Shown in pieces: positions 33,223-61,522 of a stretch of 64,000 nt of DNA. The translations under genes and the position numbers were made by a program. How positions within the stretch are numbered: the first letter of the stretch is position 1; every line of letters begins with the position of its first letter. The notes under the pieces are model-generated. The model did not search any database. It worked only from the letters and a program-made list of their open reading frames with translations, and had not been told where the DNA came from. This DNA comes from Acholoe squamosa. Lineage: Eukaryota > Annelida > Polychaeta > Phyllodocida > Polynoidae. The stretch spans positions 66,081,247 to 66,145,246 of the forward strand of contig OX439049.1 in the NCBI GenBank assembly GCA_949317995.1, written 5' to 3'.

Positions 33223-33474
33223 GGGCCTTCTTTCTGCTGCTGGTTCCTCATACAACCAAACAGACAGTAGGTACAGCAGTGTATGGATACAAACATTTAT
33301 AATAATAATGGTGACCTTCAATGAGCGGCCTAATGTTTCCTTCAGTAACTAGATTTATGTTGGGACCTGCTCACATGAGGTGCTCTCACTGCCATGAATA
33401 AGTGTCTTCTGGCAGAGTCTTAGTTTAACAAGTCCATAGATTGTACAGACCATTTTATATACCATTTATATAGC

Positions 33475-36482: not shown

Positions 36483-36725
36483 TTAAGGAAAAATGTTCTG
36501 GAGATAAACTACCCAAAGCATGTTCAACATGATGATAACATTTTGGAGTAATATGCAGGTAATTGATTTTTGCACTCCTGAGTCCACTACCGGGTCAGGT
36601 GTCATGTCCTCTGGGACCCCATAGTGAGGCCAGGTTTTGATTATGTTGTAAAGGTTCTCCCCAGGGGAGGCTGTTTCTCGCACATCTCTGTGGCCACCTA
36701 TGATGTAATCATCTGTCAGCCAGTC
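36483..36725 (-). CDS. PGRP gene 1, terminal exon (C1)
   Basis: The minus-strand acceptor (CAG before GACTGG) opens DWLTDDYIIGGHRDV, then RETASPGENLYNIIKTWP, which is the end of a PGRP (amidase_2-like) domain. It contains the second zinc-ligand His in GHRDV, but the Cys normally found in the TxCPG motif is Ser (TASPG). After the domain comes a tail ending in a strongly hydrophobic stretch (ITCILLQNVIIMLNMLWVV) before the stop at 36483. It could be a membrane anchor or intronic read-through. The exon is 243 nt, in phase with B1. Confidence 0.8.
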   Translation of the reverse strand, partial: DWLTDDYIIGGHRDVRETASPGENLYNIIKTWPHYGVPEDMTPDPVVDSGVQKSITCILLQNVIIMLNMLWVVYLQNIFP

Positions 36726-36993: not shown

Positions 36994-37193
36994 ACCTGCA
37001 TGGTCCAGGAAGTTTTTGACGGCATTGAGAGAGAGGTTATTTGGGACTGCTGTTTCAAAATTACCAATGAAGGCAATGCCATAAGACTTGGAGTTGTATC
37101 CGTATGTATGAGCGCCAGTCCTGTTCCAGCCACGTCCCTCGTACATCCGTCCATCCTGTCCAACCAAGAAGCTGTAGCCGATATCATCCCATC
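36994..37193 (-). CDS. PGRP gene 1, middle exon (B1)
   Basis: 200 nt on the minus strand, between acceptor TTTAG and donor GTAAGT. Entering with two bases of a split codon it reads WDDIGYSFLVGQDGRMYEGR, then GWNRTGAHTYGYNSKSYGIA and FIGNFETAVPNNLSLNAV. This is the diagnostic central part of a PGRP domain (WxDIGYxFLVGxDGxxYEGRGW and GAHTxGYN). The Tyr of DIGY, one of the amidase active-site positions, is present. The intron to C1 is only 268 bp. Confidence 0.9.
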
Positions 37194-38009: not shown

Positions 38010-39590
38010 CGGGGAGGAATTGAAGAGTCTCTTGAAAGATCTGACAGTCTTGGCTTGCTGGACACATGGTTTTAGAGAGTTCCAGAGCCTACCTCCCCGA
38101 TATAGAGGTGCTCTTTTGTATTTTTATTTTTGCAGCCTCAGCAGTCGGCTCAAGGCCTACTTTGGTCACTTAACCATCATGATTCCTAATTGTAGCAAAC
38201 GTCTTTCTACACGGGGTTGCACTTCGGATTCAGTAGTGCGAGTTTTCACGCTATACTTTTTGGTGCAGGTCCTGAGTGCTCTATTTGTAGCTGATCAATC
38301 CTAGTTTTTAAAACACCATCAACTGGAAAACTATAATAATCTAGGTACGGTAGAATGGTCTGTTTGTACACTAATACGAACATCTGTTTGTCCATCAGGT
38401 ACCTCAGATTATTGAGCCTGAACACTTTGAGCCTTACCTTTTGTTCTGTCGCTATAAGGAACAAATCACTTTTAAGTTTACAATCTATTTTTACACCTAA
38501 GTATGATTATTTCTTTATGGGAATGGAGGGGGTCCCCCTGATGGTTATACTCATGTCTTCACACACTTTTAGTGCCTGTTTTTCCCGGTACCACACAAAT
38601 TGGGTCTTTTTGGTATTAATTAACATACCATTCTTATAACATCAGTTGACCAGTCAGCTGGTAACTTATGACTGGCTACCTCAGGGTCATTGTCTGACGC
38701 GGTCATGACTATGTCGTCTGCATATAGTAACATTTTATTATTTTGAGCTCAGCTGGTAATGTCGTTGATAAACAGAATGAAGAGCAGGCCTTGGGGCCCC
38801 AAGACTGATCCTTGGGGCACCCCAAACAGGAGCTCTTTTTCATCTATTTTTATGCTATTGTAAGGGGTTGTGGCCTTACGGACCTGGGGGTTCGGGTCTT
38901 ACGATTCGGAAAGAAAGAGTAAGACAGTGTTTCAAGTGTATGCCAACGGTTAGATTTATTACTTAATGCACACTCACGGCTGCCGGATAGTATAGAAGGG
39001 GCAGCTAATAATGATTAATGGTGGTCTACATTCTGCGGAGGCCAGAAGGGCCTCTGACGTAGTGGCTGAGCCCTGGGCTTTATATAAGGACCCAGGTGTT
39101 CGTCGTCAGATGTCCCCACAGACCCGGATCGGTGCTGCCACCTATCCGGAACCTGAGGAACGTCCGACGACTCGACTCACCCGCCACGTCAGACGGTACC
39201 CAACTCTATGGTTAAACAATACGTACCTCTACACTATTCAATAGTACACTGTCGTTCAGGAACTGGCAATCCATTTTAGGACATTTTTTTGGTTACCTTA
39301 ATTACATATAGTGGTGCATCACTTTCTCAGTTAGTTTCCCAGTTGTTGGGAGGAGGCTAATGAGCCTCCAGTTTGTGACTTGGTTTAATGCACCGCTCTT
39401 TGGTATTGGGACAACTGTGGCGCTACCCCATGCTTCAGGGAACAGTCCCTGTGTGATGTTTTTGTTGATCACGTCACAGATATGTGGAATGAGATATAGG
39501 AAGGCATCTTTACTATGATAGGGTCCCATATCAGTTATGGGTAAGTGATTTCCCAAATTAAATATATGGGAAAAGAATAAATATGACATG
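38010..39590 (-). pseudogene. Decayed non-LTR retrotransposon (LINE) RT fragment
   Basis: The minus-strand translation gives VVPIPKSGALNQVTNWRL and ISLLPTTGKLTEK (39302-39400), then GVPQGSVLGP and LYADDIVM (about 38690-38820), then C-terminal RT/thumb sequence with VYKQTILPYLDYY (38246-38464). These are LINE reverse-transcriptase motifs in order. The palm segment with the first catalytic Asp is missing, in-frame stops occur (after NDITS) and the frame changes. A solo LTR interrupts it. It lies inside the intron of PGRP gene 1, in the same orientation. Confidence 0.85.
38859..39233 (-). mobile_element. Solo LTR of the Ty3/Gypsy family, 375 bp
   Basis: Its complement matches the LTR at 53044-53417 along its length, beginning TGTAGAGGTACGT and ending TTACA, with moderate divergence (for example GGTTGTGGCCTTACGGACC here). 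It is flanked by CTAT on both sides (38855-38858 and 39234-39237), a 4-bp target duplication. No internal region remains, so it arose by LTR-LTR recombination. It sits within the decayed LINE and is therefore younger than it. Confidence 0.9.
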
Positions 39591-41343: not shown

Positions 41344-41517
41344 CCCTGTCCTCAACATGGAAGCGCTGGACTTCCCTGACTGCACTGCTACAATTAGATA
41401 GTGAGAAGCATACAGGAGGATCGGCAGTATGCTGAATGAAGACTTGGCCAAGTTTACCGCTTATGTAGCTGCCCCCTCTTGGATAGACAGAACCCCACTC
41501 GCTTCTGGTCACCAGAA
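41344..41517 (-). CDS. PGRP gene 1, first recognised domain exon (A1)
   Basis: 174 nt on the minus strand between the acceptor CACCCCAG and a GTAAGT donor. It reads LVTRSEWGSVYPRGGSYISG, then KLGQVFIQHTADPPVCFS and SAVREVQRFHVEDRG, the N-terminal half of a PGRP domain. The first zinc-ligand position, His in the usual HHT motif, is Gln (FIQHTA). Unlike the A exons of gene 2 it has no preceding domain end, so it starts the first or only domain. The exon with start codon and signal peptide should lie upstream (41518-43673) but I could not identify it. The predicted protein is a single-domain, non-catalytic recognition PGRP. Confidence 0.85.
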
Positions 41518-43673: not shown

Positions 43674-43871
43674 TTAAACGTAATCATTATGAAATGACAT
43701 AAAGGGGGTCGTTTTCTGCAACCCTGAGCCCACACCTGGGTCAGATTTTATATCCTCTGGAGAACTATAGCGAGGCCAGGTTTTGATTATGTTGTAGAGG
43801 ACATCCCCAGGGCAGATGGTTGCACGCACATCTTTGTGGGCACGTATGATGTAATCGTCTGTCAGCCAATC
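43674..43871 (-). CDS. PGRP gene 2, terminal exon (C2) with intact zinc ligands
   Basis: 198 nt including the stop. It reads DWLTDDYIIRAHKDV, then RATICPGDVLYNIIKTWP. Both C-terminal zinc ligands of catalytic PGRPs are present, the His of AHKDV and the Cys of TICPG (codon 43812-43814), as is the Thr two residues before the Cys. This contrasts with every other domain in the window, where the Cys is Ser. The tail after the domain (PEDIKSDPGVGSGLQKTT) is short and polar, without the hydrophobic end seen in gene 1. Confidence 0.88.
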   Translation of the reverse strand, partial: DWLTDDYIIRAHKDVRATICPGDVLYNIIKTWPRYSSPEDIKSDPGVGSGLQKTTPFMSFHNDYV

Positions 43872-44549
43872 CTGTAAACACAAAAGGCAGTCCTGATTAG
43901 GTTCATATAACACTTTGGGGAATTTAGGAATTTTCACTCTAGAAATCAGTTTAATTGTTGTACCAGAAGTCAATGCACTCCAATGATACCATCAATGTTA
44001 TATATCTTAAATACATCGATTATTGTATCTTGATGTAATGCTGATGTCATATCTAGCTATGGGGTTTCTATAGCCATTATAGGAACATAGTGATAACATG
44101 AATTTGGTGATTTGGAGCGTATCAGTGTGGTCCAGTACATAACTCGACTGCTTTTATTTCATCATTATATTGTACATTATATTACATATGTCATTCATTA
44201 TCGCCCACTATGCTATAGTAGCCTATAATATATATGCAGCAGTACCACATCCTACCGCTAGGTGTGGTACAGTCAATGGTCACTATGTATATATACAGCC
44301 AGGTGGGAGGCACTGCCTACTACCTACTTGCTGAGTTACCAACTAACCAGCATGGTGTTTACTTGTTATATTAATGCACTCTTATGAAACTATCAATCTT
44401 ATTTTCTTGTAATATTAACTTGAATGCATCTTTCAATCTTATCTCAACTTGATACTGATATACACTTCTCTACTATTGAAATGGAACCCAAATGTTTATA
44501 AACATACTGAACAGAATATGTCCATAGTCCTATTAAGGCCTATACTTAC

Positions 44550-44749
44550 ACCTGCATTATCCAGGAAGTTCTTGACGGCATTGAGAGAGAGGTCATTTGG
44601 GACTGCTGTTTCAAAATCACCAATGAAGGCAATGCCATAAGACTTGGAGTTGTATCCGTATGTATGAGCGCCAGTCCTGTTCCAGCCACGTCCCTCATAC
44701 ACTCGTCCATCCTGTCCAACCAGGAAACTGTAGCCAATATCATTCCATC
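44550..44749 (-). CDS. PGRP gene 2, B2 exon of the last domain
   Basis: 200 nt between TTTAG and GTAAGT, same phase as the other B exons. It reads WNDIGYSFLVGQDGRVYEGR, then GWNRTGAHTYGYN. The DIGY tyrosine is kept. WNDIGY replaces the WDDIGY of the other copies. The following intron (43872-44549) keeps the empty site AGTCCTATTAAGG at about 44526-44538, where other copies carry LTR sequence. Confidence 0.9.
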
Positions 44750-45586
44750 CTAAAGTGGTACAAAGTCGACAAAGTCAGACTGTAAACACATGCATACTTT
44801 CTGTAAATGGTCAAGTCTCACGAAATGGGGTCACACTGTGTGGTACCATATATGCTCTATATTCTCATTTCCTGTATATTTAGTTTTGATATCAACTACC
44901 AGATAAAAATGTCTTAAGAAGCTATCAAAAAAAAAAAAATCAGATGGACAAGGTAGATTTCATTTGAAAACTTCAATAAGAGAAATTATATGTGACAGGT
45001 ATGGTTCCAGGTGGCAGGCAAGGTTCTGTGACCTATTTTACCCTTTTTAGTTTGCTGTATATATTAGCTGCCTCTAGATATTAATTGGTTTTTAGTTGAT
45101 TTCCCATATCAAATGTATGGAGAAACATATATGGTATTATGTGTGGCCCCATTTTGTTAGACTTGACAAAACAGGAGGGAAGCTTGTGGAGAAAACACAT
45201 CCTTACCCAGCTAGCACACACCATGCAATTTACATCACTTTTACATTTTTACCCAAACTCTACTGCAACTCTTAGATTTTGAGTTGGGTCCTTACCTCTT
45301 TCTTATATGGCATTCATTAGGAAAAAAAACTTGATTCTACTTAAATTTGCTCTGAAATATTTCGGTAAAGGAAAATTAATCATTTCAAAAGAAACTTTGC
45401 TTTAAAACTTTTATGGAGCAACATTTAATTCTATAGATTCGAGTTTGGATTTAGAAGATATAACCAGTGAATCATTTTCTAATTCTTAACAGAAACCAAC
45501 CTAACAAATCGCAAAGTGTTTCTCTCATCTGTTTGGTTTCTCTTTGAATGTAGACTTATCATGGACTCTTGTTATCAATGTTAAAA

Positions 45587-45658
45587 CAAGAAAAATGTGG
45601 CAAGGACCACGGGTAGGAGTTTTCACTCCTATCCGCGGTCCAAACCACATTTTTCTTG
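45587..45658. repeat. Hairpin element in PGRP gene 2 intron
   Basis: CAAGAAAAATGTGG and GGACCACGGGTAGGAGT are mirrored by ACTCCTATCCGCGGTCC and CCACATTTTTCTTG about a TTTC turn. The arms are about 34 bp with a few mismatches. The rest of the 2.2-kb intron (44750-46979) is G/C-run-rich and has no supported gene; the open frame 45544-46029 runs through the hairpin. Confidence 0.8.
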
Positions 45659-46979
45659 AGATCCCGGGGGGAATGGCAAAATGTGTGAATGAATGCACCC
45701 TTTCAACCCCGGGCTTTCAACCTAGGGGACTACTATATCATTACTGGGGGGGGGGCACAAAAAAAATAACCCATCATGGTAAGAAAAGCCTAGTACAGAT
45801 AGCTGTAATGGGAAAGGAGAGATTCCAGAACCATGCAAAGGGTGGGGCTGAAAACTGTTGGAGGTTGCCCCAGAGTCTGCACACGAAAATCCACCAATCC
45901 ACCCCTAGGAAGTGGTCATTATTTAGGCCTATCAACAGGGGGTTGGTGGGTTTAAGGAGGGGGGATGAGCGCAAAAAATTCAGACCCCTCCTGATGGGGG
46001 GGAGTGTAAAATATTTTGACCCCTCTTGAGAGGGGGTAAAACATTACCCCAATTTCCCCCAAAAAAGCCAGCACGCTACTATAGATTAAAGAGGGACGCG
46101 AATATTCTCCTTGCCTCCAGCACAGGGGGTGCAAACATTTTTTGACTGCCACCGAAGAGTGGGGCATAAGAAATTTCTGTGTGTCCGAGCAAAACCACCC
46201 TCCTCTCCTCTAGAGTAATGACGACTCCCCTAGAGTAAGCCACATTTTCTTGAGCATTGTCTGTTGGAAGGGGGGGGTACAGGCACACAATACAATTTGG
46301 CACAGTCAGTGCAGGAACTGGGAATTACATCTACAGAGAAATCGGTGCCGACTTCTGCCTATCACCACTGCTAAGATAGTAGTAAATAGAGAAAACTAAT
46401 ATAGACCCCTAAATACGGGAGGCTTAGTAGAGCTACAATATTTGCATGCCTCTTTTTATTCGTGTGGACGGTAACTATGGAACGTAGCCATTCTGCAAGG
46501 TAACTTTTCACGTGCACACGGACCATGCCATATTGTAGGCGACAAGTCATTATCATTGTCAATATGCCAATTTGATAATACCAATTTCAAAGTGAGGACC
46601 ATGAAGAACAGACAACCACTCACACTCGTACCCCTCATATCATACTCTGTGGGGGCATCGCAGTGCCAACTTCGTTACATGTCTTTTCGGCTCAACACGC
46701 TGTTCCATGGAAATGGTGTGGAGCATACAGATATGTCATGAAAATGAAGAGGCCACTGTGTGATGTCACAACTGATGTCACAGCCACTGCATGACAACTG
46801 ACATCACAGCGCCCATGGACGAAAACAAAACCATAAGAGAGTTGCAAAGGTCGCTACACTCCCGGCCGCTTACGCAGCTAGCAACTCTAAAAAAATTGCT
46901 TTACTTGAAAAACGTCCTCAGAGTGACCCCTTCTATGAAACAGTAGTAAAAAAACTGGCCCTATTAAGGGTTGACTTAC

Positions 46980-47289
46980 CTCTTTTCTCTACATGGTAAC
47001 GCTGGAAACCCTTAACTTCACTGCTACATGCAGATAGTGTGTAGCATGCAGGAGTAGCAGTATGGTGAATGAAGACTTGACCAAGTTTACCGCTTATGTA
47101 GCCGCCCCCTCTTTGATACACAGAACCCCACTCACTTCTTTTCACCAAAACTGAGGTGCCTGGTTTCTTGTCCCCTGGGACCCCATAGCGAGGCCAGGTT
47201 TTGATTATGTTGTAAAGGTTCTCTCCAGGGGAGGCTGTTTCTCGCACATCTCTGTGGCCACGTATGACGTAATCATCTGTCAGCCAGTC
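46980..47289 (-). CDS. PGRP gene 2, A2 exon: end of one domain, start of the last
   Basis: 310 nt between CAG|GACTGG and a GTAAGT donor. The first half ends the preceding domain (HRDVRETASPGENLYNIIK, with Ser at the zinc-Cys position). After a short linker, SVLVKRSEWGSVYQRGG begins the last domain, with GQVFIHHTATPACYTLS. The zinc-ligand His is present here (CAC at 47065-47067), whereas other copies have Gln. With C2 this makes the last domain complete for His, Tyr, His, Thr and Cys. It is one codon shorter than the other A exons and visibly diverged from them. Confidence 0.9.
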
Positions 47290-47379
47290 CTGGAGATATT
47301 AAGTACTGTCTTGATTAGGTACATAGAGCACTTTCTTTAGTAATTTGTTCTCTAAATATGCTTTTACTATTAGTTACTA

Positions 47380-47493
47380 TGAGTGTTTCTATAATAAACT
47401 ATCCGTTGGCATACACTTGAATCACCGCCTTGCTCCTTCTTTCCCGAATAGTAAGGCCCGAACCACCATGTCCGTAAGACTAAAACCATTACA
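47380..47493 (+). mobile_element. 114-bp LTR tail in unit 1
   Basis: Matches the last 114 bp of the Gypsy LTR at 53304-53417 without indels (TGAGTGTTTCTATAATAAAC to CCATTACA). It is followed by CTATTAAGG, the right flank of the insertion site. The left part of the LTR is missing and joins directly to intron sequence. It lies antisense to the PGRP gene and keeps the LTR AATAAA. Confidence 0.92.
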
Positions 47494-47513
47494 CTATTAA
47501 GGCCTATACTCAC

Positions 47514-47713
47514 ACCTGCATTGTCCAGAAAGTTCTTGACAGCATTGAGAGAGAGGTCATTTGGGACTGCTGTTTCAAAATTACCAATGAAGGCAATGCC
47601 ATAAGACTTGGAGTTGTATCCGTATGTATGAGCACCAGTCCTGTTCCAGCCACGTCCCTCGTACATCCGTCCATCCTGTCCAACCAAGAAGCTGTAGCCG
47701 ATATCATCCCATC
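47514..47713 (-). CDS. PGRP gene 2, B3 exon
   Basis: 200 nt between TTTAG and GTGAGT. It reads WDDIGYSFLVGQDGRMYEGR, then GWNRTGAHTYGYN and SKSYGIAFIGNFETAVPNDL, the central PGRP core with the DIGY tyrosine. With A3 it forms the third complete domain counted from the window edge. The donor differs from the GTAAGT of B1 and B2 but is canonical. Confidence 0.9.
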
Positions 47714-48805
47714 CTAAAGTGGTACAAAGTAGACAAAGACAGCCTGTAAACACATGCATACTTTCTGAAAATGAGTAAGTAGAGTAATAGATGTTTAACG
47801 CCATTTCGACAGCTATGGTAATATTCATTGCGAGAACTGAGTGAGTGAGTAATAGATGTTTAACGCCATTTCAACAGCTAAGGTCATATTCATGGTGAGA
47901 ACTACATTACACAATTTTACAGGGGAATGTGTCAGTGTCCACGCATATGTGCACCACACACATCCCGAGGGGATAGGAAAGAGGAGAAATAGACCCTTTT
48001 AAGTGGGCTAGGGAAGCCTGCTTTCTGTAAATGGTCAAATCCCACAAAATGAGGTCACACAGTGGAGTATCACACATGCTCCATATTTCCATTTCGTGTA
48101 CTTTTAGTTTTGGGATCAACTACCAGATAAAGAATGTCTTAATAAGCTCTTCATACTAGGAATCAGATGGGCAAGGTAGAATTCATTCCCTTGAAAACTA
48201 CAATGAGAGAAATAATATAACATATATGGCAGGTATGGTTTATGGGTGCAGCTTTCTGATCAACTAGCCAAACTGAATTTGTCACCATTTTCCTTCTAAT
48301 TAGAATATTCAAACACTTTTTAAGAGTTCCTGGTAAATAATACAACCAAAATATGTTCTGAAGTACACTGGAGAGGGAAGAGTTACGCATTTCAAGGGAA
48401 ACCTTTCTTTCAAATCTGTATGAGCAACATTTACAGATTTTATAGATTTGAGTTTGGATTTGGAACATGTAATCAATGGAACATTTTCTGTTTCCTAACA
48501 GAAAGCCATAAAAAAAGTCTTTCTTTTGTTTGTTTGGTTTCTGTTCTAAAATAAATGTACACTTAGTAAGAATACTTATTATCAGTATTGATAAAATTGC
48601 TTTAAGGTCTGCTTCCATTGCATCAGTCTGGTCTATTTTCTGTTAGTCCAACAGATTTTTACATGTGTGGAAAAAAACTTTCTGATTGACAAAAAATGGA
48701 GCAAACCAATGCAGTTGAACTGGCCAATTCATTTAAAAAATCCCCAGAGTACTCCATTGATTAGAACAGCAGTAAATTGACTTGGGCCAAAAAAGGTTGA
48801 CTTAC

Positions 48806-49118
48806 CCCTGTCCTCGACATGGAAGCGCTGGACTTCCCTGACTGCACTGCTACAATTAGATAGTGAGAAGCATACAGGAGGATCGGCAGTATGCTGAATG
48901 AAGACTTGGCCAAGTTTACCGCTTATGAAGCTGCCCCCTCTTGGATAGATAGAACCCCACTCGCTTCTGGTAACCAGAGCTGAGGTATCTGGTTTCTCAT
49001 CCCCTGGGACCCCATAGCGAGGACAGGTTTTGATTATGTTGTAAAGGTTCTCTCCAGGGGAGGCTGTTTCTCGCACATCTCTGTGGCCACGTATGACGTA
49101 ATCATCTGTCAGCCAGTC
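48806..49118 (-). CDS. PGRP gene 2, A3 exon
   Basis: 313 nt. The first half closes one domain (RGHRDVRETASPGENLYN) and the second opens the next (SALVTRSEWGSIYPRGG, GQVFIQHTADPPVCFS). Zinc positions are His to Gln and Cys to Ser. A change specific to this copy turns KTWPRYG into KTCPRYG near the domain end, which may weaken folding of that domain or simply be tolerated. Confidence 0.9.
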
Positions 49119-49208
49119 CTGGAGATATTAAGTACTGTCTTGATTAGGTACATAGAGCACTTTCTTTAGTAATTTGTTCTCTAAATATGCTTTTACTATT
49201 AGTTACTA

Positions 49209-49322
49209 TGAGTGTTTCTATAATAAACTATCCGTTGGCATACACTTGAATCACCGCCTTGCTCCTTCTTTCCCGAATAGTAAGGCCAGAACCACCATGT
49301 CCGTAAGACTAAAACCATTACA
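49209..49322 (+). mobile_element. 114-bp LTR tail in unit 2
   Basis: Same truncated LTR 3' end at the same site and with the same left junction (TTACTATTAGTTACTA) as in units 1 and 3. The shared breakpoint shows that the truncation happened before the units were amplified. Confidence 0.92.
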
Positions 49323-49342
49323 CTATTAAGGCCTATACTCAC

Positions 49343-49542
49343 ACCTGCATTGTCCAGAAAGTTCTTGACAGCATTGAGAGAGAGGTCATTTGGGACTGCT
49401 GTTTCAAAATTACCAATGAAGGCAATGCCATAAGACTTGGAGTTGTATCCGTATGTATGAGCACCAGTCCTGTTCCAGCCACGTCCCTCGTACATCCGTC
49501 CATCCTGTCCAACCAAGAAGCTGTAGCCGATATCATCCCATC
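49343..49542 (-). CDS. PGRP gene 2, B4 exon
   Basis: 200-nt central PGRP exon identical in protein to B3 and B5 (GYSFLVGQDGRMYEGRGW). The TTTAG acceptor and GTGAGT donor are kept. It pairs with exon A4 upstream (higher coordinates) to form a non-catalytic domain. Confidence 0.9.
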
Positions 49543-50634
49543 CTAAAGTGGTACAAAGTAGACAAAGACAGCCTGTAAACACATGCATACTTTCTGAAAA
49601 TGAGTAAGTAGAGTAATAGATGTTTAACGCCATTTCGACAGCTATGGTAATATTCATTGCGAGAACTGAGTGAGTGAGTAATAGATGTTTAACGCCATTT
49701 CAACAGCTAAGGTCATATTCATGGTGAGAACTACATTACACAATTTTACAGGGGAATGTGTCAGTGTCCACGCATATGTGCACCACACACATCCCGAGGG
49801 GATAGGAAAGAGGAGAAATAGACCCTTTTAAGTGGGCTAGGGAAGCCTGCTTTCTGTAAATGGTCAAATCCCACAAAATGAGGTCACACAGTGGAGTATC
49901 ACACATGCTCCATATTTCCATTTCATGTACTTTTAGTTTTGGGATCAACTACCAGATAAAGAATGTCTTAATAAGCTCTTCATACTAGGAATCAGATGGG
50001 CAAGGTAGAATTCATTCCCTTGAAAACTACAATGAGAGAAATAATATAACATATATGGCAGGTATGGTTTATGGGTGCAGCTTTCTGATCAACTAGCCAA
50101 ACTGAATTTGTCACCATTTTCCTTCTAATTAGAATATTCAAACACTTTCTAAGAGTTCCTGGTGAATAATACAACCAAAATATGTTCTGAAGTACACTGG
50201 AGAGGGAAGAGTTACGCATTTCAAGGGAAACCTTTCTTTCAAATCTGTATGAGCAACATTTACAGATTTTATAGATTTGAGTTTGGATTTGGAACATGTA
50301 ATCAATGGAACATTTTCTGTTTCCTAACAGAAAGCCATAAAAAAAGTCTTTCTTTTGTTTGTTTGGTTTCTGTTCTAAAATAAATGTACACTTAGTAAGA
50401 ATACTTATTATCAGTATTGATAAAATTGCTTTAAGGTCTGCTTTCATTGCATCAGTCTGGTCTATTTTCTGTTAGTCCAACAGATTTTTACATGTGTGGA
50501 AAAAAACTTTCTGATTGACAAAAAATGGAGCAAACCAATGCAGTTGAACTGGCCAATTCATTTAAAAAATCCCCAGAGTACTCCATTGATTAGAACAGCA
50601 GTAAATTGACTTGGGCCAAAAAAGGTTGACTTAC

Positions 50635-50947
50635 CCCTGTCCTCGACATGGAAGCGCTGGACTTCCCTGACTGCACTGCTACAATTAGATAGTGAGAAGC
50701 ATACAGGAGGATCGGCAGTATGCTGAATGAAGACTTGGCCAAGTTTACCGCTTATGAAGCTGCCCCCTCTTGGATAGATAGAACCCCACTCGCTTCTGGT
50801 AACCAGAGCTGAGGTATCTTGTTTCTCATCCCCTGGGACCCCATAGCGAGGCCAGGTTTTGATTATGTTGTAAAGGTTCTCTCCAGGGGAGGCTGTTTCT
50901 CGCACATCTCTGTGGCCACGTATGACGTAATCATCTGTCAGCCAGTC
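50635..50947 (-). CDS. PGRP gene 2, A4 exon
   Basis: 313 nt with the same architecture as A3. The linker reads GDEKQDTSALVTRSEWGS, where the other copies have GDEKPDTS, a Pro to Gln change. Zinc positions are Gln (FIQHTA) and Ser (TASPG). The splice phases keep the chain of domains in frame. Confidence 0.9.
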
Positions 50948-51037
50948 CTGGAGATATTAAGTACTGTCTTGATTAGGTACATAGAGCACTTTCTTTAGTA
51001 ATTTGTTCTCTAAATATGCTTTTACTATTAGTTACTA

Positions 51038-51151
51038 TGAGTGTTTCTATAATAAACTATCCGTTGGCATACACTTGAATCACTGCCTTGCTCCTTCTTT
51101 CCCGAATAGTAAGGCCCGAACCACCATGTCCGTAAGACTAAAACCATTACA
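51038..51151 (+). mobile_element. 114-bp LTR tail in unit 3
   Basis: Third copy of the truncated LTR end, flanked on the right by CTATTAAGGCC. The A5-proximal intron, 1.8 kb away, carries the full-length element at the equivalent site. Confidence 0.92.
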
Positions 51152-51171
51152 CTATTAAGGCCTATACTCAC

Positions 51172-51371
51172 ACCTGCATTGTCCAGAAAGTTCTTGACAG
51201 CATTGAGAGAGAGGTCATTTGGGACTGCTGTTTCAAAATTACCAATGAAGGCAATGCCATAAGACTTGGAGTTGTATCCGTATGTATGAGCACCAGTCCT
51301 GTTCCAGCCACGTCCCTCGTACATCCGTCCATCCTGTCCAACCAAGAAGCTGTAGCCGATATCATCCCATC
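51172..51371 (-). CDS. PGRP gene 2, B5 exon
   Basis: 200-nt central PGRP exon, with YEGRGWNRTGAHTYGYN. It completes the first whole domain visible in the window, together with A5. Sequence and boundaries match B3 and B4. Confidence 0.9.
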
Positions 51372-52463
51372 CTAAAGTGGTACAAAGTAGACAAAGACAG
51401 CCTGTAAACACATGCATACTTTCTGAAAATGAGTAAGTAGAGTAATAGATGTTTAACGCCATTTCGACAGCTATGGTAATATTCATTGCGAGAACTGAGT
51501 GAGTGAGTAATAGATGTTTAACGCCATTTCAACAGCTAAGGTCATATTCATGGTGAGAACTACATTACACAATTTTACAGGGGAATGTGTCAGTGTCCAC
51601 GCATATGTGCACCACACACATCCCGAGGGGATAGGAAAGAGGAGAAATAGACCCTTTTAAGTGGGCTAGGGAAGCCTGCTTTCTGTAAATGGTCAAATCC
51701 CACAAAATGAGGTCACACAGTGGAGTATCACACATGCTCCATATTTCCATTTCATGTACTTTTAGTTTTGGGATCAACTACCAGATAAAGAATGTCTTAA
51801 TAAGCTCTTCATACTAGGAATCAGATGGGCAAGGTAGAATTCATTCCCTTGAAAACTACAATGAGAGAAATAATATAACATATATGGCAGGTATGGTTTA
51901 TGGGTGCAGCTTTCTGATCAACTAGCCAAACTGAATTTGTCACCATTTTCCTTCTAATTAGAATATTCAAACACTTTTTAAGAGTTCCTGGTAAATAATA
52001 CAACCAAAATATGTTCTGAAGTACACTGGAGAGGGAAGAGTTACGCATTTCAAGGGAAACCTTTCTTTCAAATCTGTATGAGCAACATTTACAGATTTTA
52101 TAGATTTGAGTTTGGATTTGGAACATGTAATCAATGGAACATTTTCTGTTTCCTAACAGAAAGCCATAAAAAAAGTCTTTCTTTTGTTTGTTTGGTTTCT
52201 GTTCTAAAATAAATGTACACTTAGTAAGAATACTTATTATCAGTATTGATAAAATTGCTTTAAGGTCTGCTTCCATTGCATCAGTCTGGTCTATTTTCTG
52301 TTAGTCCAACAGATTTTTACATGTGTGGAAAAAAACTTTCTGATTGACAAAAAATGGAGCAAACCAATGCAGTTGAACTGGCCAATTAATTTGAAAAATC
52401 CCCAGAGTACTCCATTGATTAGAACAGCAGTAAATTGACTTGGGCCAAAAAAGGTTGACTTAC

Positions 52464-52776
52464 CCCTGTCCTCGACATGGAAGCGCTGGACTTCCCTGAC
52501 TGCACTGCTACAATTAGATAGTGAGAAGCATACAGGAGGATCGGCAGTATGCTGAATGAAGACTTGGCCAAGTTTACCGCTTATGAAGCTGCCCCCTCTT
52601 GGATAGATAGAACCCCACTCGCTTCTGGTAACCAGAGCTGAGGTATCTGGTTTCTCATCCCCTGGGACCCCATAGCGAGGCCAGGTTTTGATTATGTTGT
52701 AAAGGTTCTCTCCAGGGGAGGCTGTTTCTCGCACATCTCTGTGGCCACGTATGACGTAATCATCTGTCAGCCAGTC
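52464..52776 (-). CDS. PGRP gene 2, A5 exon (most 5' exon in window)
   Basis: 313 nt between CTCCAG|GACTGG and CAGGG|GTAAGT. It begins with the end of a further domain (DWLTDDYVIRGHRDV, TASPG), so at least one more B exon exists upstream on the minus strand, beyond the retroelements at 53044 onwards. The second half opens the next domain (SALVTRSEWGSIYPRGG, FIQHTADPP). The gene therefore encodes at least four complete domains plus part of a fifth. Signal peptide and start are outside the window. Confidence 0.9.
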
Positions 52777-53043
52777 CTGGAGATATTAAGTACTGTCTTG
52801 ATTAGGTACATAGAGCACTTTCTTTAGTAATTTGTTCTCTAAATATGCTTTTACTATTATATTGGTTATTAATGCCAATCAGGATTGATTCTCACAATGT
52901 TAGGATCTTCGTTATATCTTAAATACCTGATGTATACTGCGCTTTATGTCATCTCAACTTGATACTGATATACACTCCTCTACTATTGAAATGGAACTTA
53001 AATGTTTAAAAACATACTGAACAGAATATGTCCACAGTCCTAT

Positions 53044-53417
53044 TGTAGAGGTACGTTGATACATAACCATAGCGTTGGGTACCGTCTGGTGTGGCGGGTG
53101 AGTCGAGTCGTCGGATGTTCCTCAGGTTCCGGATAGGTGGCAGCACCAATCCGGGTCTGTGGGGACATCTGACGGCGAACACCTAGGTTCTTATATAAAG
53201 ACCGGGGCTCAGCCGCTACGTCAGAGGCCCTTCTGGCCTCCGATCATGTAAGACCTTTTTCTAATATCTAATAGCTGCCCTATCACCAACTACCGGGTAG
53301 CCGTGAGTGTTTCTATAATAAACTATCCGTTGGCATTCACTTGAATCACCGCCTTGCTCCTTCTTTCCCGAATAGTAAGGCCCGAACCACCAGGTCCGTA
53401 AGACTAAAACCATTACA
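53044..53417 (+). repeat. 5' LTR of the Gypsy element, 374 bp
   Basis: Begins TGTAGAGGTACG and ends CCATTACA (TG...CA ends). It has a TATA box TTATATAAAG (53191-53200) and AATAAA (53317-53322), giving the expected promoter and polyadenylation order. It matches the solo LTR at 38859-39233 and the three 114-bp tails. Confidence 0.93.
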
Positions 53418-53418
53418 C

Positions 53419-53434
53419 TGGTGCCGTGACCAGT
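53419..53434 (+). promoter_or_regulatory. Primer-binding-like site
   Basis: TGGTGCCGTGACCAG starts one base after the LTR. TGG-initial sequence complementary to a tRNA 3' end at this place is the usual minus-strand primer-binding site. I cannot assign the primer tRNA from the sequence alone. Confidence 0.6.
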
Positions 53435-56376
53435 TAATTCTGGTGTATAGCCTGGACGTTATAACGTCCGAACGGCTAGTACATGGGTTAGATAGCCTCG
53501 CGGAAGCTAACCCTGAAGGGCAATCGGTTGCCCAGGAGAATGGCAATGGGTCATTGTTGATCCATACCCATTCGAACTCCCGAGATGCAGACTCTGCATC
53601 TTGGAGAGATCCTGAACCTCACTATAAAATGGATAGTGAGGAGAACATACCAGACTCTGTACGGAGGGAACAATCCATACAGAGACAGGGTAATTTGATG
53701 AGTCAACAATCACTTGTTGATGAATTAAGTAATTCGATGTTCGAAGTTGGTGGTAGCACTAACCCAGAACATCCGGCACCTATGCCAAAGAGGATTACGT
53801 TTGGAAAACTACCATACAGTATACCCAGACCCAGACTACCGATATTAGATTACAGCGCCATAGACGGCGACGTAACCTAGGCGGTACCAGAAGGTGAGGA
53901 ATTTAAACAACCGGATGTCCTGTTGTTAAACGAAACCTATGTTACTTTGAACAAGAATCTGAATACCTTGATCAAAGCGAAGGATGAAGTAATTAATGAA
54001 AAATTACATCTAGAAGAAGACTTAATCGGTATGCGAAATGAATTCGAAACCAGAAAGAGTGAGTACATGAAAGAATTAGAAAGTGAAGCAATAAAACTTT
54101 AGGAAATGAGAAAGTCATTCAATAAAGAATATGACAATAGACACACTCGTATCCAGACATACATGGATACGAATGATCAATTAAGTCTTGATAAGGCAAA
54201 TTACGAATCCGAAATAAGCCGATATCAAAGCGAATTGGAGGAATTGAAACTTCAGTGCAGCAAACAAGCTGAAGACAATGAAACTATCCGGGTGGGCATT
54301 ATAGCTTATGATAAACAACTGGAAGAGGATAGACAGAAACTCACGAATGAGCTTCAGGAATTGCAAACTACTGCAATAACCCTAGATAAATATGTAGAAG
54401 CCGCACAATTGACTATAGGTACTATAGATCCAAATGTGGTCTCTACAATGTTGGCAAAATCATCCCAAGATGTAACTCCCACCAGATTCAACCCATTCGT
54501 TGCCGATGGGGCTGATAAAAATGTAGTATCTGGAATCTATAAGAAACCGGATAACACCGCGGCCAGCGGAATGAGTATCCAAAATAGTAATTGCCCACAA
54601 GGGACTACTAATAAAGGATCTACGAACAGTGCATCTACACCTCAAGCTCCGGTGCTTGATACTGTAGGCCCTGCACCACCGATACCGGATTTGAGTCATA
54701 AGATTAAAGCGACTCACGTCAGTGCAACTAGTGTATATAATACTACACCAGTAGCTCAACCGCAAGTACCGGGACCACCGAGAAATATACTAACTCCACC
54801 ATCGTATTTTTCTCAACCCGGTCATAGCACACCAGCAGGTGCAAGATTGCCTAACCCGCCTTCAGGTCAGAGCAATGTTCCTAATGATGGACGATTCCCT
54901 AGACCGAATCCCCCACAACCTAATGTGACAGGTGGTACGTATCTATCAAGAACAACTCCCTATGGATATAGGAATAACTATAATCCGACAGGAGGAAGTA
55001 ACTACCAATATGGTAATACATATAACCAGGGATGGAATCAAAATAATTCCTACCCCAGGTATGTACTTCCGGAACAACTGGAAATGCAAGTTATGGAGTG
55101 GGATATCCTAATGGTGCTTCCGGGAACTACCCCAATGGTGGTCTCCCTGGAGGTAATCCCCCAGGTGGTCCTGGAGGATCCGGATCCGGAGGATCAGGAT
55201 CGGGAGGAGATGGCAGGAAGCCAAACAGGAGAACTTCCATGCCTGCAGGGATGCAAAACATCTTTGATAGAAGCCAATGTATCCAAAATCTGGGCATTGA
55301 CTGCTACCGGAAAGGAGCAGATGGCATGGAAGTCATGAACTGGAGCATGCGAGAAGCAGATAGACTACGAGGATGTAATAATCCGGCACGTAGGCAAGCA
55401 AGGATACCCCCTCCATATGATTCGAATGATCCATGGAAGGATAGGTATCAGGCTTTTGTCGATGAAGTCAACTGTAGTGGTTGGACAAAAGAAGAAGCTC
55501 TGCCTTATCTGATCTGTTGGTTGAATAAAGGTGGAAAAGTAGCCCTCAATCAATGGAGAGCAGCATATGGAATATACGGCACCTATGATCAATTGGTCGA
55601 GTGTGCCGCGTACCTGTTTGGTTCGATCGTTAGAGAAGACCCATGGGTAAGCTTTAAGAAGAGGACACAGAAACCTAAAGAATCTCATAAAGTCTTTGGT
55701 TTGGAGCTACAGGACTTGCTATCGAAAGCACGTCCAAATTGGGCTCATGATGATGACTGCTATCTGCAAGAATCCGGATCACAAGCAAGTAGTTTGGGAT
55801 TCTTGGAAGGATGACACATCCTTCAGTGACCTCTTCATATCAATCGATGGACACAATATGAAGAAAAGGTTGGTGGGTCTAGGACCTAACCCGGTACGAG
55901 CAGCTCCTTTGCAATACAGAGGCTCCCCTGCTCAGGTATATGAAACTTTCCAATTAGCTCCGGTTGATTTACAGGAGGCTGATCAGGAAGAGGAATATGT
56001 CTCTGATGAAAATGGAGAGTATATTGGATCAGTCAAGGTAGCTGGAAAGTATTACTGACAGAAACGGTATAGGAAAGTACATCCGAAAGGAAGGGGAGGG
56101 TCCGTTGCTAATAAAATGGCTTCCGGACCAATTCAAGGTTGTAATGTGACCCCTACGGTCACTCCTACCATAGCAGCCGCTGCTGTTCTGACTAATATGA
56201 TGGAGACATTGATAGCCGGATTGACAGAGGCTTTGAAAAGACCTAGAGTTGATAAATCTCAAAGGAGATGTTTCAGATGCCAGAAATTAGGACACTACGC
56301 GTCCGAATGTATGGCTGAGAAGCCTGTCCCCCATAGACAGGAAGGTGTCTCTGGTATAATAGCAGAGGAAAACTAA
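53435..56376 (+). pseudogene. Gypsy gag region, broken
   Basis: One frame runs from within the LTR to 55338, with in-frame TAG codons at 53878-53880 and 54100-54102. It is Glu/Lys-rich and coiled-coil-like around 53960-54420, then Pro/Gly/Asn-rich. The capsid-like part (WSMREADRLRG, WLNKGGKVALNQWRAAYG) continues in another frame at 55098-55814, then returns to the first frame from about 55696. A TGA follows at 56056. The nucleocapsid end (56116-56376) has the CCHC zinc knuckle CFRCQKLGHYASEC. Several independent breaks mean no intact Gag is made here. Confidence 0.88.
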
Positions 56377-56412
56377 GGAGGGGTCCCCCTATGGGCAGAG
56401 AAGGGGATCCCA

Positions 56413-58554
56413 GTGACAAATCTTGCCATAATATCACCATCCGTAACGATAGTTCGCATGAAGTCGCCTAACACCGAGGTGGTTGTAGACACCCGGAAGG
56501 TTAGGGAAGCTGATATGACAGGTGCCCAGGGAGCACAGGGGAAACCCGATATCGAGGTAGGCAGCTATGATTTAGCCAGGGTTGGTAGTGCCCACCTACC
56601 CCCGGGTCATCCTTGTTCGGAATACCTCAAAGGATGTGGATCGACTCCAGGTGTGAACAATGACGTTCCAATCGTCACGGACACGCCCTCTGTTCTAAAC
56701 GGAAGGCGGTGGTATGTTTGCCTCACTGTTAACGGAAGATCTGCCGAATTTCTTATGGATACGGGTGCTAGCCACTCCTGTATCTCCAAGAGGTTCTATG
56801 ACCTTATTCCGAATGAACATGATACTCTCAAATTGGGAGGAAGTTTTCAAACGGCCGATGGCAGTACTATGCAAACGTATGGAAGAACTTGTGTGAAGTT
56901 GCAATTGGATGGAATGCATGACTATGTCATGAGCGCCACCGTTGCGGATATAGCGGATGAGGGGATACTCGGGTTGGATTTCACATCCCTGTATGGGGTG
57001 GTTTTAGAACCACAATCAGGAGAGTTGAGTGTGAAATACCCGTATCCTGTAAAGGTTAGGTGTGTACTGAGACAAGTAAGCAGTATGGCTAGTGTAGCAC
57101 ACACTGTGCGAATTCCCGCAGGTGTAGCCTGTGATGTGCTCGTAAGAAGCGATCCCGCAATGCACAATAAGGCTGCAGTGATAGAACCGGATGTAGTTAC
57201 TTTGTCAAGTATCGGATTAACTTCTGTAGACACTATAGTAGCAAATGCATCCTGGTCGGTAGTACCTGTTTCCAATACTGGAAACACTATTATCTACCTG
57301 AAAAAGGGACAAGTTTTTGGAAACGTGACTCTTTCGGAAACTGTAATGGATAGTAAGTTAAACTTACAGAAGGTAACAGAAGACGATGAAATTTCGGATG
57401 ACTTGCTTAAGTTGTATGAAGAAACTTCATTAGAAGATCCGGAACACCGGAAAGAGTTTTATGATATGCTCTGTCAGTATAGGACTGCCTTTGCCAAACC
57501 TGGTGAAAAACTAGGTACGACAAATAAGGTAGTACACAAAATAGATACTGGAGATGCGGAACCCTTGAAAATACCGTATAGGCGGTTACCTTTAGCGAAA
57601 AAGAGAGTAGCTGAAGAGGAAATAAACAAGATGTTGGAACAGGATGTAATAGTCCCATCCAATAGCCCATGGAGTAGTCCTGTATGTATGGTAACAAAAA
57701 AAGATGGTACTATACGCTTTTGCATAGACTACAGGACGTTGAATGGAGTAACGAAAAAGAATTTATATCCATTACCGAGGATAGATGAATCCATTGACTC
57801 CTTAGGAGGTAACAGTTGGTTTTGCACCCAAGACTTGCAATCAGGATATTGGCAAGTGGGAATGAATCCATCAGATATGGAAAAGACAGCATTTTCGAGT
57901 CATATTGGACTATTCCAATATAATGTAATGCCGTTTGGTTTGTGCAATGCACCAGCTACATTTGAAGCAATGATGGAAACTATATTAAGTAATCTATTGT
58001 GGAAAAGATGTCTTGTATATCTTGACAATGTAATAGTCTTCGGAAAAACATTCGAAGAGTGTTTTAACAATCTCAAATTGGTATTAGAACGTATCATTTC
58101 CAATGGTCTCAAATTGAAACCCAAGAAATGCCACATGTTTAGAAAGTCCATAAATTATTTGGGCCGCATCATTAGTGATGAAGGAATAAAAGCGGATCCC
58201 GATAAAATCGAGTCAGTAACGAATTGGAATAGACCTAAAACATCCTTTTTAGGATTCTGTTCCTATTACAGGGAATTTATTCCGAATTATTCTAGAGTCA
58301 GTTACCCATTACAAGTAATAGCTAACTGGACTCCAGTAAGTACCAAGGAAAAATTTCCTTGGACGCATGAACAGGAATCTACTTTTCAAAAGCTAAAAGA
58401 TCTGTTCACGAGTACTCCCGTATTGCAATATCCGAATGAAACGGATCATTTTAAATACTGGATACAGATGCTAGTAATGACAGCATTGGTGCAGCTCTCT
58501 CGCAAGTCCAAAATGGGAGAGAGGTACCCATTGCCTTTGCCAGCAATACACTGA
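56413..58554 (+). pseudogene. Gypsy pol: protease and reverse transcriptase
   Basis: An open frame of 713 codons contains the aspartic protease motif FLMDTGASHSC (DTGAS at 56758-56772). RT follows, with RFCIDYRTLNGVTKKNLYPL, FCTQDLQSGYWQV and MPFGLCNAPATFEAMM. The catalytic box reads YLDN (58018-58029): the second Asp of YLDD is Asn (AAT at 58027-58029), which should abolish polymerisation. After the RT thumb and connection a frameshift near 58455 takes the frame out of RNase H, so the last ~30 codons are out of frame. Confidence 0.92.
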
Positions 58555-58735
58555 GTAGAACTCAGCGGAATTACTGCACAACCAAAAGAGAATTGTTGGC
58601 AGTAGTTGTGTATACAAAGAAGTTCAAACATTTTCTGTGGGGAACGAACTTTACTTTATGTACGGATCATTCCTCTTTAAGATGGTTATTGAACTTCCGA
58701 AGGTATGCTAGGTCGATGGCTGGCCCACTTATCTG
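58450..58735 (+). pseudogene. Gypsy RNase H segment in a shifted frame
   Basis: In a different frame from both flanking pol ORFs this stretch encodes RNase H-like motifs (LDTDASNDSIGAALS, then CTDHSSLRWLL). It connects to pol by frameshifts near 58455 and 58705. No start codon or complete ORF of its own supports translation, so it is read as a damaged part of pol. Confidence 0.8.
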
Positions 58736-60297
58736 AGTATGGGCTCGAACATCACCAGATTCAGCATAGACCCGGAGTTAAGCATTTAAATGCTGACGCT
58801 TTGTCTCGAATACCAATTCGGAAATGTGATTATCCGGATTGTACTGATTGTGGAGCTCATAGGGCGGTGTTAGCAGGGATTCGAAGACCATTCGAACCCC
58901 TAGTTGCCAGTATACTGGATTGGTCTATGGATCACATACGGCGTTTCCAGGAAGCTGACTCAATAACTGCACAGCTACTGCAATTAGTACCAAAGGGTAT
59001 ACGTCCAGTTAGACCAGAGGTCTCTCTGGAAAATCGAGAAATGAGAAGGTTTCTTGCTCAATGGATGGAGCTTGAAGTCCGGAAAGGCGTGTTATACCGT
59101 TGGAAGCCATGTAATAATGGTGAGAAAATCATGCAAGTGGTGATACCACATGCACTGAGACATGACATTATGTATTTCTGTCATGGACATCGGACCAGTG
59201 GTCATTTCGGGAGAAAACGCTCATTAGCACGACTCTCCAAGAAGTACTATTGGCCTGGCAAGACACGAGACTTGCAAAGATGGGTAACCACGTGTCCGGA
59301 CTGTTGTAAAAACAAACCCGGACCCGGGATGGGCAAGCTTCCACTATCCCAAGAACTTTTCGGAGTTAGATTCGCAAGAATCGGGGTAGATATCATTAGT
59401 GGATTGAATACAACCGCTAATGATAATACCTGTATGATGGTAGTGTGTGACTACTATACGAAATACACCAAAGTATTTCCACTACCGGACCATAAAGCAG
59501 TCACTTGTGCCGAAACCTTTGTAAAAGGTTGGGTACTGGCTTTCGGTGTACCATTAATGCTACACAGTGACCAGGGCAGAGAATTCGAATCGAATCTCTG
59601 GCAAGGTATGTGCGAATACTTAGCTATATGCAAGACTAGAACCAATCCGTATAGGCCACAAAGCGATGGATTGGTAGAAAGGTTCGTGTTCATGGCCGGA
59701 GCCTGCGATGTTACAGCGCGGCGCTATATTCATGGGAAACGTGACATCTACTTCCCTCACATTGATGCTGCCACTTGTAGGGCGGTAGTCTCAGTCAGGC
59801 TAAGCCGGATGTTACAGGTCTTGAATAAACAACATCCTGAAACCAAATATGTTATTTGTACAATATTCGGCATGGACCTTCAGAAATTCAACCACAAGAG
59901 CTTGCCAGATCCCAATCAGCCTGCATTGAATAGGAGCATCAAACTCCTAAAGGGAGATGTGCAATATCTCAACACCATCTACAAAATGCCCACCATCAAG
60001 CTGCACACTGTATTCCACAAAAACAGGTGGAATCGGGGCAAGAAAGGGAGAAAGGTTGGCAAAGCCCCGAAATTCTCATGCCAATATGGCCCTAAAAAAA
60101 TGAGAGATGGCCTACATGCCACAGATGATGTTAAGAAGGAACTAGCAGCACGTATTGCCCAGGTAGTCAAGAAAATCCTGCCGCCTGAGAAGGTTGAGAA
60201 TGTTGCTGGAGCTGATGATGTAATGGCAGATGAAGAAGATGATGAGTATGAATGGGATGAGGTGACTGCTCAGATAAATAAAATATGCTTAGGCTGA
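58705..60297 (+). pseudogene. Chimeric ORF: Gypsy integrase fused to LINE ORF1 end
   Basis: The 530-codon frame starts with the end of RNase H (HRPGVKHLNADALSR). It continues with the integrase HHCC zinc domain (HGHRTSGHFGRK ... CPDCC) and the DDE core: GVDIISG, HSDQGREFES and VERF, so all three acidic residues are present. Immediately after VERF (59685) the Gypsy similarity stops and about 200 codons of unrelated protein follow in the same frame to the stop at 60297. That part belongs to the LINE. The fusion is an accident of insertion, although the frame is open throughout. Confidence 0.85.
59687..60297 (+). pseudogene. LINE ORF1 remnant with SGNH-hydrolase-like end
   Basis: About 200 codons. 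Near the end RDGLHATDDVKKELAARI resembles block V (DxxH) of SGNH/GDSL hydrolase domains, which occur in ORF1 of several CR1/L2-type LINEs. It is followed by a very acidic tail (ADEEDDEYEWDE). Upstream blocks are partly missing because of the 5' truncation. The match rests on one motif plus context and could be another ORF1 type. Confidence 0.5.
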
Positions 60298-61522
60298 GCA
60301 TTTGTCCATAAGATTATAACACAGGTTCATTGACTGACTGGTTGTCTTGGGAGCAATTCGTGAGGATTGCACCTAATACACCTTTTCTATAATTGACAAA
60401 GCCAAGGGATACCTGACTGGTTGTCTTGGGAGCAATTCGTGAGGATTGCACCTACTATGACTACTATGACTATTATGACCACTTGATAAGTTCATAGAAT
60501 ATCTGAACTTTCTAAAAAGGACCTGTTATTCTACCCTAGGCAACATGTTGCAATTTATGCACATAGCACATCCAAATTTGAGAGTAGAACTTTCGATAAA
60601 AGAAATGCATGCTTCACTCATTGTAAGCTTAGTCAAGCTGGTGTTGGTACATTGATGATTATACAAAGGGTGGTCTATGTTCTTGGTCGCTTAGTGTTAA
60701 GTAATGCATGGTTACATATATTTACTCGTGTACTACTTCTGTATTATTTTTGTCTACAGTTTTTTGTCACTTGAATGGCATGATACAATGAAATGCTAAT
60801 TAAATCGCTGATTGGTTCATAATTGAAAAATGTGTCACTGCTATTGATGTATTGTAATTTTTGTTCTATTCTATTTGTAGGTAAGAACATTACTACTGGT
60901 GACGGTGGAATGATTACAGTGGGTGCATTGTGGTGTCTCAGGGAGCTACGAATACATAGATAAGATCTATGACCAAACTAGTACAAGGTCCGGTAACACT
61001 GGGTGAGCTAACTAACCCTTTATTAGTAGTAACTTATTAATTAATTTATCAATATTAATCCCTAACTTTTCATGTGATTCTACATGACTAAGAAAATATT
61101 CTATACTAGAATCAAAATAACCAAGGGCTTAAAACCTTTTTGAACCTCTAACTTTAACTTTATTTCCCTCCTCCTTTAGGTGCTTATTTGCAATTTATTT
61201 AACTAATTTACTGATTTGATAATATGCAATAATATATAGAAATTAAAGTTAAAAACCCAGAGTTTACTTACTCATTGACACAACACAATATTGCATATGC
61301 GTGGTTTTTTATCTTTTGTCACGGAGCTGAGATTATCTTATAAGTAACTTGGTATTAGCTCCCTCTCTCGTTGTATTCCACCCACAGAACATTAAGTTGG
61401 TTATTTCTGTTGGTGAATATCTGAGCCTCTGGCTAGAATTTAGCCAGGGGCTCCTTTATTTTTAATTTATAATTCTTTATTTTTTGTATATAAATTATTG
61501 TCTACTTGTATTTGTTTGTGTA
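60298..61522 (+). other. LINE inter-ORF region
   Basis: There is no ORF. A ~40-bp segment (CTGACTGGTTGTCTTGGGAG and on to GGATTGCACCTA) occurs twice, at 60334 and 60413, 79 bp apart. The rest is AT-rich. It could include part of the ORF1 3' end or a translation-reinitiation region, but nothing specific is visible. Confidence 0.5.

Follow-up and report, generated by a model that had tools for sequence, protein, structure and literature searches.

A putative five-domain peptidoglycan recognition protein in the annelid Acholoe squamosa, with four zinc-site-dead domains ahead of one amidase-type domain

Peptidoglycan recognition proteins (PGRPs) are commonly classed as either sensors or enzymes. 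Mammalian PGLYRP3 and PGLYRP4 and Drosophila PGRP-LF have lost amidase residues, and neither domain of these proteins is known to have an intact amidase site. They are two-domain PGRPs, and the damselfly Calopteryx splendens has PGRP genes with two, three, five and six domains (PMC5381652). The damselfly genes are lineage-specific and single-exon, with divergent domains of which the last is the most divergent, and the term amidase does not occur in the main text of that paper (PMC5381652). In amphioxus BbtPGRP3 (structure 4z8i), a chitin-binding domain is N-terminal to one catalytic PGRP domain (PMC4610682). In insects, a single PGRP-LC locus holds exon sets for three alternatively spliced PGRP domains, the main isoforms carrying one PGRP domain each (PMC2715215). 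Among annelids, some PGRPs of Olavius algarvensis and Ridgeia piscesae have predicted amidase activity; they are described as secreted or membrane proteins, and the passages on them do not mention a multi-domain form (PMC5117596, PMC3372519). The locus described here is from the polynoid annelid Acholoe squamosa and lies in a stretch of 64,000 nucleotides, the window (contig OX439049.1, here C15, positions 66081247-66145246). It appears to be an immune gene that encodes an array of five PGRP domains, D1 to D5, where D1 to D4 have lost two zinc-site residues and are termed dead, and D5 has the complete catalytic set.

How does this locus compare? The predicted tandem PGRP domains would be shared with PGLYRP3, PGLYRP4 and PGRP-LF, and five or six domains per predicted gene with C. 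splendens. Unlike the damselfly genes, however, the domains here are multi-exon, four being near-identical and zinc-site dead and one intact. As in BbtPGRP3, a putative binding module precedes one catalytic domain, but it consists of dead PGRP domains. As in PGRP-LC, several exon sets are found at one locus, but here the end of one domain and the start of the next are fused in one exon. The poly-PGRP state is already known, and the arrangement of four dead domains and one intact domain is what would differ; neither this arrangement nor a cassette expansion of such kind was found in the open-licence papers searched. The sequence-only reading, an earlier look at this DNA, noted dead domains followed by one potentially catalytic domain and held that a string of sensing or binding domains before one amidase would be unusual. 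As a gene model, dead domains ahead of one with all amidase residues are supported, but poly-PGRPs have been published, and the present locus would extend them beyond the damselfly.

All PGRP exons are on the minus strand (Table 1). Each domain has three parts: A, with SEWG and the first zinc His; B, 200 nt, with DIGY and the groove; and C, with the second His and the Cys. Splice sites are standard, with GTAAGT or GTGAGT donors, and the phases agree throughout: A exons end in phase 1, B exons start in phase 1 and end in phase 0, C exons start in phase 0, and A1 and A6 (the latter from a sixth domain, D6, discussed below) also start in phase 1. Parts C and A form a single exon at the D1/D2, D2/D3, D3/D4 and D4/D5 junctions (313 nt, except 310 nt for C4A5). 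Around the fusion, a CCAG sequence is compatible with exact intron loss or with a join within the A-exon acceptor; precise retro-type intron loss would be one of two fitting origins. The 11 exons of D1-D5, counted without a signal-peptide exon, give one frame of 2,630 nt with no internal stops. The spliced product is 876 residues and a stop, the first residue being completed by the G of the preceding exon. Eleven phase-matched exons in a single open frame are not a chance pattern, and this frame, with its fused C+A exons, makes a transcript with two or more PGRP domains likely.

Exon coordinates given by the sequence-only reading were recovered when splice sites and phases were re-read. The extent of its array stood in part: the cassettes and the final domain were found, but the array comprises five domains, and of D1 the window covers just the last quarter (part C). 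Searching the genome (1.48 Gb, 63 contigs) at the protein level gave at least 22 matches and located exons A1 and B1 on the same contig beyond position 64000.

A C+A exon of 313 nt and a B exon of 200 nt total 513 nt, and addition or skipping of such a cassette would leave the frame intact. Does the exon set then yield mostly one- or two-domain isoforms by alternative splicing, as in insect PGRP-LC? B exons end and C exons start in phase 0, which would allow in-frame cassette skipping, and Anopheles PGRP-LC isoforms each carry one of three PGRP domains (PMC2715215). However, the C part of each of D1-D4 shares an exon with the following A part, so that the domains are joined head to tail unless a whole C+A exon is skipped, and we consider this explanation unlikely.

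The assignment of the domains rests on residues and family matches. The Gln and Ser replacements noticed earlier are present in D2-D4, the three dead domains complete in the window (FIQHTA, DIGY, GHRDV, TASPG), and D1 likewise has QHTA and TASPG. With D6 included, the first zinc His is replaced by Gln and the zinc Cys by Ser in five of five domains, and the complete catalytic set is absent. D5, as was also claimed, retains the amidase-type positions (FIHHTA, DIGY, AHKDV, TICPG), a complete His-Tyr-His-Thr-Cys catalytic PGRP set (residue roles as in PMC4610682 and PMC6206172). Family scans were run on D2 and D5, the remaining domains being near-copies. Both are assigned, as predicted proteins, to the PGRP/Amidase_2 superfamily: along the full domain they match Pfam Amidase_2 (PF01510; D2 5e-13, D5 6.8e-16), and their top PDB matches are PGRPs (D2 7.2e-40; D5 8.9e-43, to BbtPGRP3, 4z8i). 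No NCBIfam model was matched at E up to 1.

Residues were placed by a HMMER alignment of D5 with 4z8i, with a numbering offset of 28 counted by hand. D5 His32 and Tyr67 correspond to 4z8i chain positions 93 and 128, i.e. BbtPGRP3 His121 and Tyr156, and BbtPGRP3 His230 and Cys238 align to the His and Cys of HKDVRATIC. Cys128 and Cys134 align to two Cys of the A exon, Gly150/Tyr151 to the Gly/Trp before NDIGY and Arg170 to the Arg of EGRGW. In BbtPGRP3, His121, His230 and Cys238 are the zinc ligands, Tyr156 is at the site, Cys128-Cys134 is a disulfide, and C238S wholly abolishes amidase activity on E. coli peptidoglycan (PMC4610682). The Cys-to-Ser replacement in D1-D4 is the same change as C238S. 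Among D1-D5, the residues predict amidase capacity in D5 only.

What is retained in the dead domains is also of interest. D1-D4 and D6 keep the Tyr, the second His, the Thr and the Gly-Trp/Arg residues, and D1-D4 keep the conserved Cys pair and the family sequence pattern. Trp is accepted as the equivalent of Tyr in the Gly-Tyr pair of the diaminopimelic acid (DAP) type. Gly-Trp before DIGY and the Arg of EGRGW are found in six of six domains, and Gly-Tyr-Arg is a DAP-type feature (PMC4610682); by these residues the predicted domains would be of the DAP-type (group II) PGRP class.

Why do the two zinc-site losses go together when they lie on different exons? Changes were polarised with two paralogous outgroups per exon, aligned with MAFFT (for A, on contigs C3 and C7; for B and C, on C7 and C15 at 15.5 Mb). 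Polarisation assigns six changes to the dead group (His-to-Gln, Tyr-to-Phe, Val-to-Met, Cys-to-Ser, Asp-to-Glu and the insertion of one residue) and another six to D5. Other PGRP exons in the genome have the ancestral letters where these are seen: HHTA, DIGY and TSCPG from C7:47660734 on, and DIGY and TSCPG at C15:15534543. An A-like exon at C3:43835464-43835637 has HHTA and an altered SEWG motif; no B or C partner of it was found in the surrounding sequence or among the matches listed from the genome search. On this polarisation, the loss of each zinc residue happened a single time and predates the dead copies. The two losses occur together because one dead ancestor was duplicated, so that the coupling noticed earlier is there, but by descent and not by repeated co-loss. 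Independent co-loss of the zinc His and the zinc Cys is rejected, as the dead domains are near-identical and both changes are shared derived.

The dead part is, by sequence comparison, a recent expansion of an in-frame 1829-bp cassette of two exons. Three consecutive units differ pairwise at 8, 7 and 5 positions (1, 2 and 1 of them exonic). Exons A2-A4 show no differences in the 171 nt compared, nor do B1-B4 in 198 nt, B1 being identical to B2 despite 28 kb of separation. Synonymous divergence (dS) per exon is 0-0.11 between dead domains and 0.18-0.42 between D5 and dead domains. Such near-identity, with only 5-8 differences in 1829 positions, might mean that the assembly has multiplied the units and that the real gene has fewer dead domains. 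This is very improbable, as the differences form distinct patterns in the three units; D1, D5 and D6 are, moreover, clearly different copies, and an array would remain.

Homogenisation among the dead copies is likely, given that A2 and A6 differ at only 4 of 171 sites and that identity of the A-B introns of D6 and D2 rises toward B, from 72% (554 columns, by A) through 91% (230 columns) to 98% (60 columns, by B). The self-comparison kept matches of at least 60 columns, from window position 35000 on. An interspersed repeat of about 380 bp is found at window 53041-53417 and 38859-39236 and, in the extension, at 78731-79105, two of the copies being 97.6% alike; the cassette B exons are followed, about 18 bp on, by a 116-bp fragment of this repeat.

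What might such a protein do? We lean toward a secreted five-domain PGRP that acts as a multivalent peptidoglycan binder holding one amidase on its substrate. D1-D4 would form a multivalent anchor on DAP-type peptidoglycan, with avidity on the polymer, and the D5 amidase would trim or scavenge peptidoglycan where the protein has docked. Peptidoglycan binding seems to be kept in the dead domains, as the groove and the DAP-linked Gly-Trp/Arg residues are kept. The sequence-only reading spoke of sensing or binding domains; the conserved groove residues favour binding, but sequence cannot separate the two. A precedent for a binding module that raises PGRP amidase activity is that of BbtPGRP3, where activity on Lys-type peptidoglycan increases about five-fold (PMC4610682). 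Agglutination or sequestration of peptidoglycan fragments are alternative roles the array might have.

The number of dead domains, hence avidity, could be changed by unequal crossing-over or cassette skipping with the frame kept, and the domain count may follow the number of cassette copies. A more tentative idea, which we think doubtful, is that of a tunable-avidity amidase. Valency would equal the copy number of the in-frame 1829-bp dead cassette, homogenised and expanded by unequal crossing-over and polymorphic between individuals, before one conserved catalytic domain. Dead copies joined to one intact copy would offer a natural test of amidase-less PGRP domains as avidity modules, and neighbouring dead and live copies allow the loss of catalysis to be compared directly with the retention of binding.

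Are the dead domains under constraint? D1 and D6 differ by 10 synonymous and 10 nonsynonymous changes, where a synonymous fraction of 0.22 would be expected (p=0.006), and A1 and A2 by 4 and 3 (p=0.05). In exon B, D4 and D5 are separated by 9 synonymous and 3 nonsynonymous changes, against 20 and 38 in A+C (Fisher p=0.02); the same contrast for D1-D5 also gives p=0.02 and is not independent of that for D4-D5. These counts are supportive of constraint on the dead domains, not conclusive, as they are small and sequence is exchanged between copies. That exon B owes its conservation to gene conversion between D5 and dead domains is not favoured: exon B dS (0.18-0.24) is not far below that of A and C (0.34-0.42), whereas its nonsynonymous divergence (dN) is five to nine times lower.

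Upstream, 15-26 kb past the window end, are exons A1 and B1 and a candidate exon for a signal peptide. The candidate begins MVSGLLLTQCLVTALCVLGQSG and was chosen on hydrophobicity and a phase-1 donor; among the 12 rows listed from 80.3 to 124 kb it looks most like a signal peptide, and with it the D1-D5 protein is a candidate for secretion. The B1-C1 intron is 26.3 kb long. Its gag-pol-like frames we take to be Ty3-like, and a pair of 693-bp direct repeats, 100% identical, looks like the long terminal repeats (LTRs) of a young element. Did a transposon inserted in this intron sever D1 and the signal peptide, leaving D2-D6 to decay? The identical LTR-like pair is a sign of recent insertion and D3 has a Trp-to-Cys change, but D1-D5 are without stop or frameshift and nonsynonymous differences between D1 and D6 are fewer than expected. 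Introns of about 26 kb also occur in large genomes, and a broken gene is, in our estimation, quite improbable.

D6, a dead domain placed by the sequence-only reading in another gene, is 2.2 kb downstream of D5. It is better read as a paralogous gene next to the array than as the array's last domain, though the support for this is weak. Two likenesses favour separate genes: the C5 end matches the C6 end at 69% over 114 nt, each running on to a stop, and A6 and its 5' flanking sequence match their A1 counterparts at 81.7% over a block of 496 columns, the exon included. AATAAA/ATTAAA sites follow C5 at 42605, 42383 and 41717, a site type too common to decide. Might D6 instead belong to the same transcript, perhaps as an alternative isoform of six domains with the amidase fifth and a dead domain last? 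An internal C5 donor (CCAG/GTGTGG) and the A6 acceptor are both in phase 1; their join reads ...SDPVLVTRSEWG, near the fused-exon linker. No convincing signal-peptide exon was found for D6, scans giving weak candidates only (two in one, three in another). On the other hand, C5 has an in-frame stop, the two C ends both look terminal, and A6 and its flank resemble those of a first domain. One transcript of six domains is possible, though we would not expect it. The C6 tail (window 36483-36600) closes with the hydrophobic segment ITCILLQNVIIMLNMLWVVYL, which might anchor the protein in a membrane, and the similar C5 tail is out of register.

Several observations weigh against a secreted five-domain binder with a terminal amidase. 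D5 may not be the last domain of the transcript, since dead D6 follows with compatible splice phases. The intron between B1 and C1 is large and carries transposons, and seven other rows, in an adjoining tandem repeat, share the donor score of the signal-peptide candidate. Before the second zinc His, D5 has Ala and not Gly; D3 lacks a Trp found in the other domains (Trp-to-Cys at window 49023, KTCPRYG, in C3A4); and, relative to the PDB PGRPs aligned, every domain lacks two residues ahead of DDY. Some difference counts are also less favourable: D4 and D6 differ by 7 synonymous and 10 nonsynonymous changes (p=0.06, not significant alone), for D6-D5 the counts are 7/5 in exon B and 18/36 in A+C (p=0.19), and the C exon of D6 gives dN/dS of 1.0-1.75 against D1-D4, on few changes.

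Table 1. Positions of the PGRP exons and associated features, in window coordinates; those above 64000 are window-equivalent positions on the same contig. Exons on the minus strand start at the higher coordinate; a slash marks the splice point.
Feature	Position	Strand	Content	Length, splice sites and phase
Fused exon C1+A2	52464..52776	-	D1 end (GHRDV, TASPG) and D2 start (SEWG, FIQHTA)	313 nt; acceptor CTCCAG/GAC, donor AGGG/GTAAGT; phase 0 in, 1 out
Exon B2, dead D2	51172..51371	-	DIGY ... GRGW	200 nt; phase 1 in, 0 out
Fused exon C2+A3	50635..50947	-	TASPG and FIQHTA	
Exon B3, dead D3	49343..49542	-		
Fused exon C3+A4	48806..49118	-	TASPG and FIQHTA; Trp-to-Cys in C3 (KTCPRYG)	
Exon B4, dead D4	47514..47713	-		
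Fused exon C4+A5	46980..47289	-	Dead D4 end (TASPG) and intact D5 start (FIHHTA)	310 nt
Exon B5, D5	44550..44749	-	NDIGY, EGRGW	
Exon C5, D5	43674..43871	-	AHKDV, TICPG, in-frame stop (ends at 43674)	Possible phase-1 donor CCAG/GTGTGG before tail
Three consecutive 1829-bp cassettes	47290..52776	-	C+A exon, intron, B exon, intron; starts 52776, 50947, 49118	
Exon A6	41344..41517	-	FIQHTA; start read by hand	Acceptor CCCCAG/TTCTGG, phase 1
Exon B6	36994..37193	-		
Exon C6	36483..36725	-	TASPG, hydrophobic C-terminal tail, stop; end counted by hand from translation	
B1-C1 intron, part in window	52777..64000	.	gag-pol-like frames on + strand, about 53.3-58.6 kb	
Direct repeat pair in B1-C1 intron	65393-66085 and 72715-73407			693 bp
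Exon B1	79325-79126	-		
Exon A1	80309-80127	-		
Candidate signal-peptide exon	89525-89441		Reads MVSGLLLTQCLVTALCVLGQSGIHVTAD	Donor ATG/GTAAGT, phase 1

Elsewhere in the window, a 41-bp satellite occupies positions 1-11934 in about 291 copies (93% match), and further satellite arrays are at 17973-19800, 19999-21315, 24644-26149, 29468-30436 and 31451-33227. In the same assembly, the mitochondrial contig (C63, 15,641 bp) has its identified protein genes all on one strand, in the order cox1-(cox2)-cox3-(nad6)-cob-atp6-nad5-(nad4L)-nad4-nad1-nad3-(nad2), which is the annelid ground pattern. Nine of the 10 frames scanned match a family, eight of them by a gene-naming model (nad4 and nad5 via terminal-domain models); the nad2 frame matches a shared antiporter model only, the nad6 candidate has no family match, and cox2 and nad4L are named by position and by eye. 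At 4400-4870 of the extract of this contig, a long simple repeat (alternating Met-Tyr in translation) lies in the probable control region.

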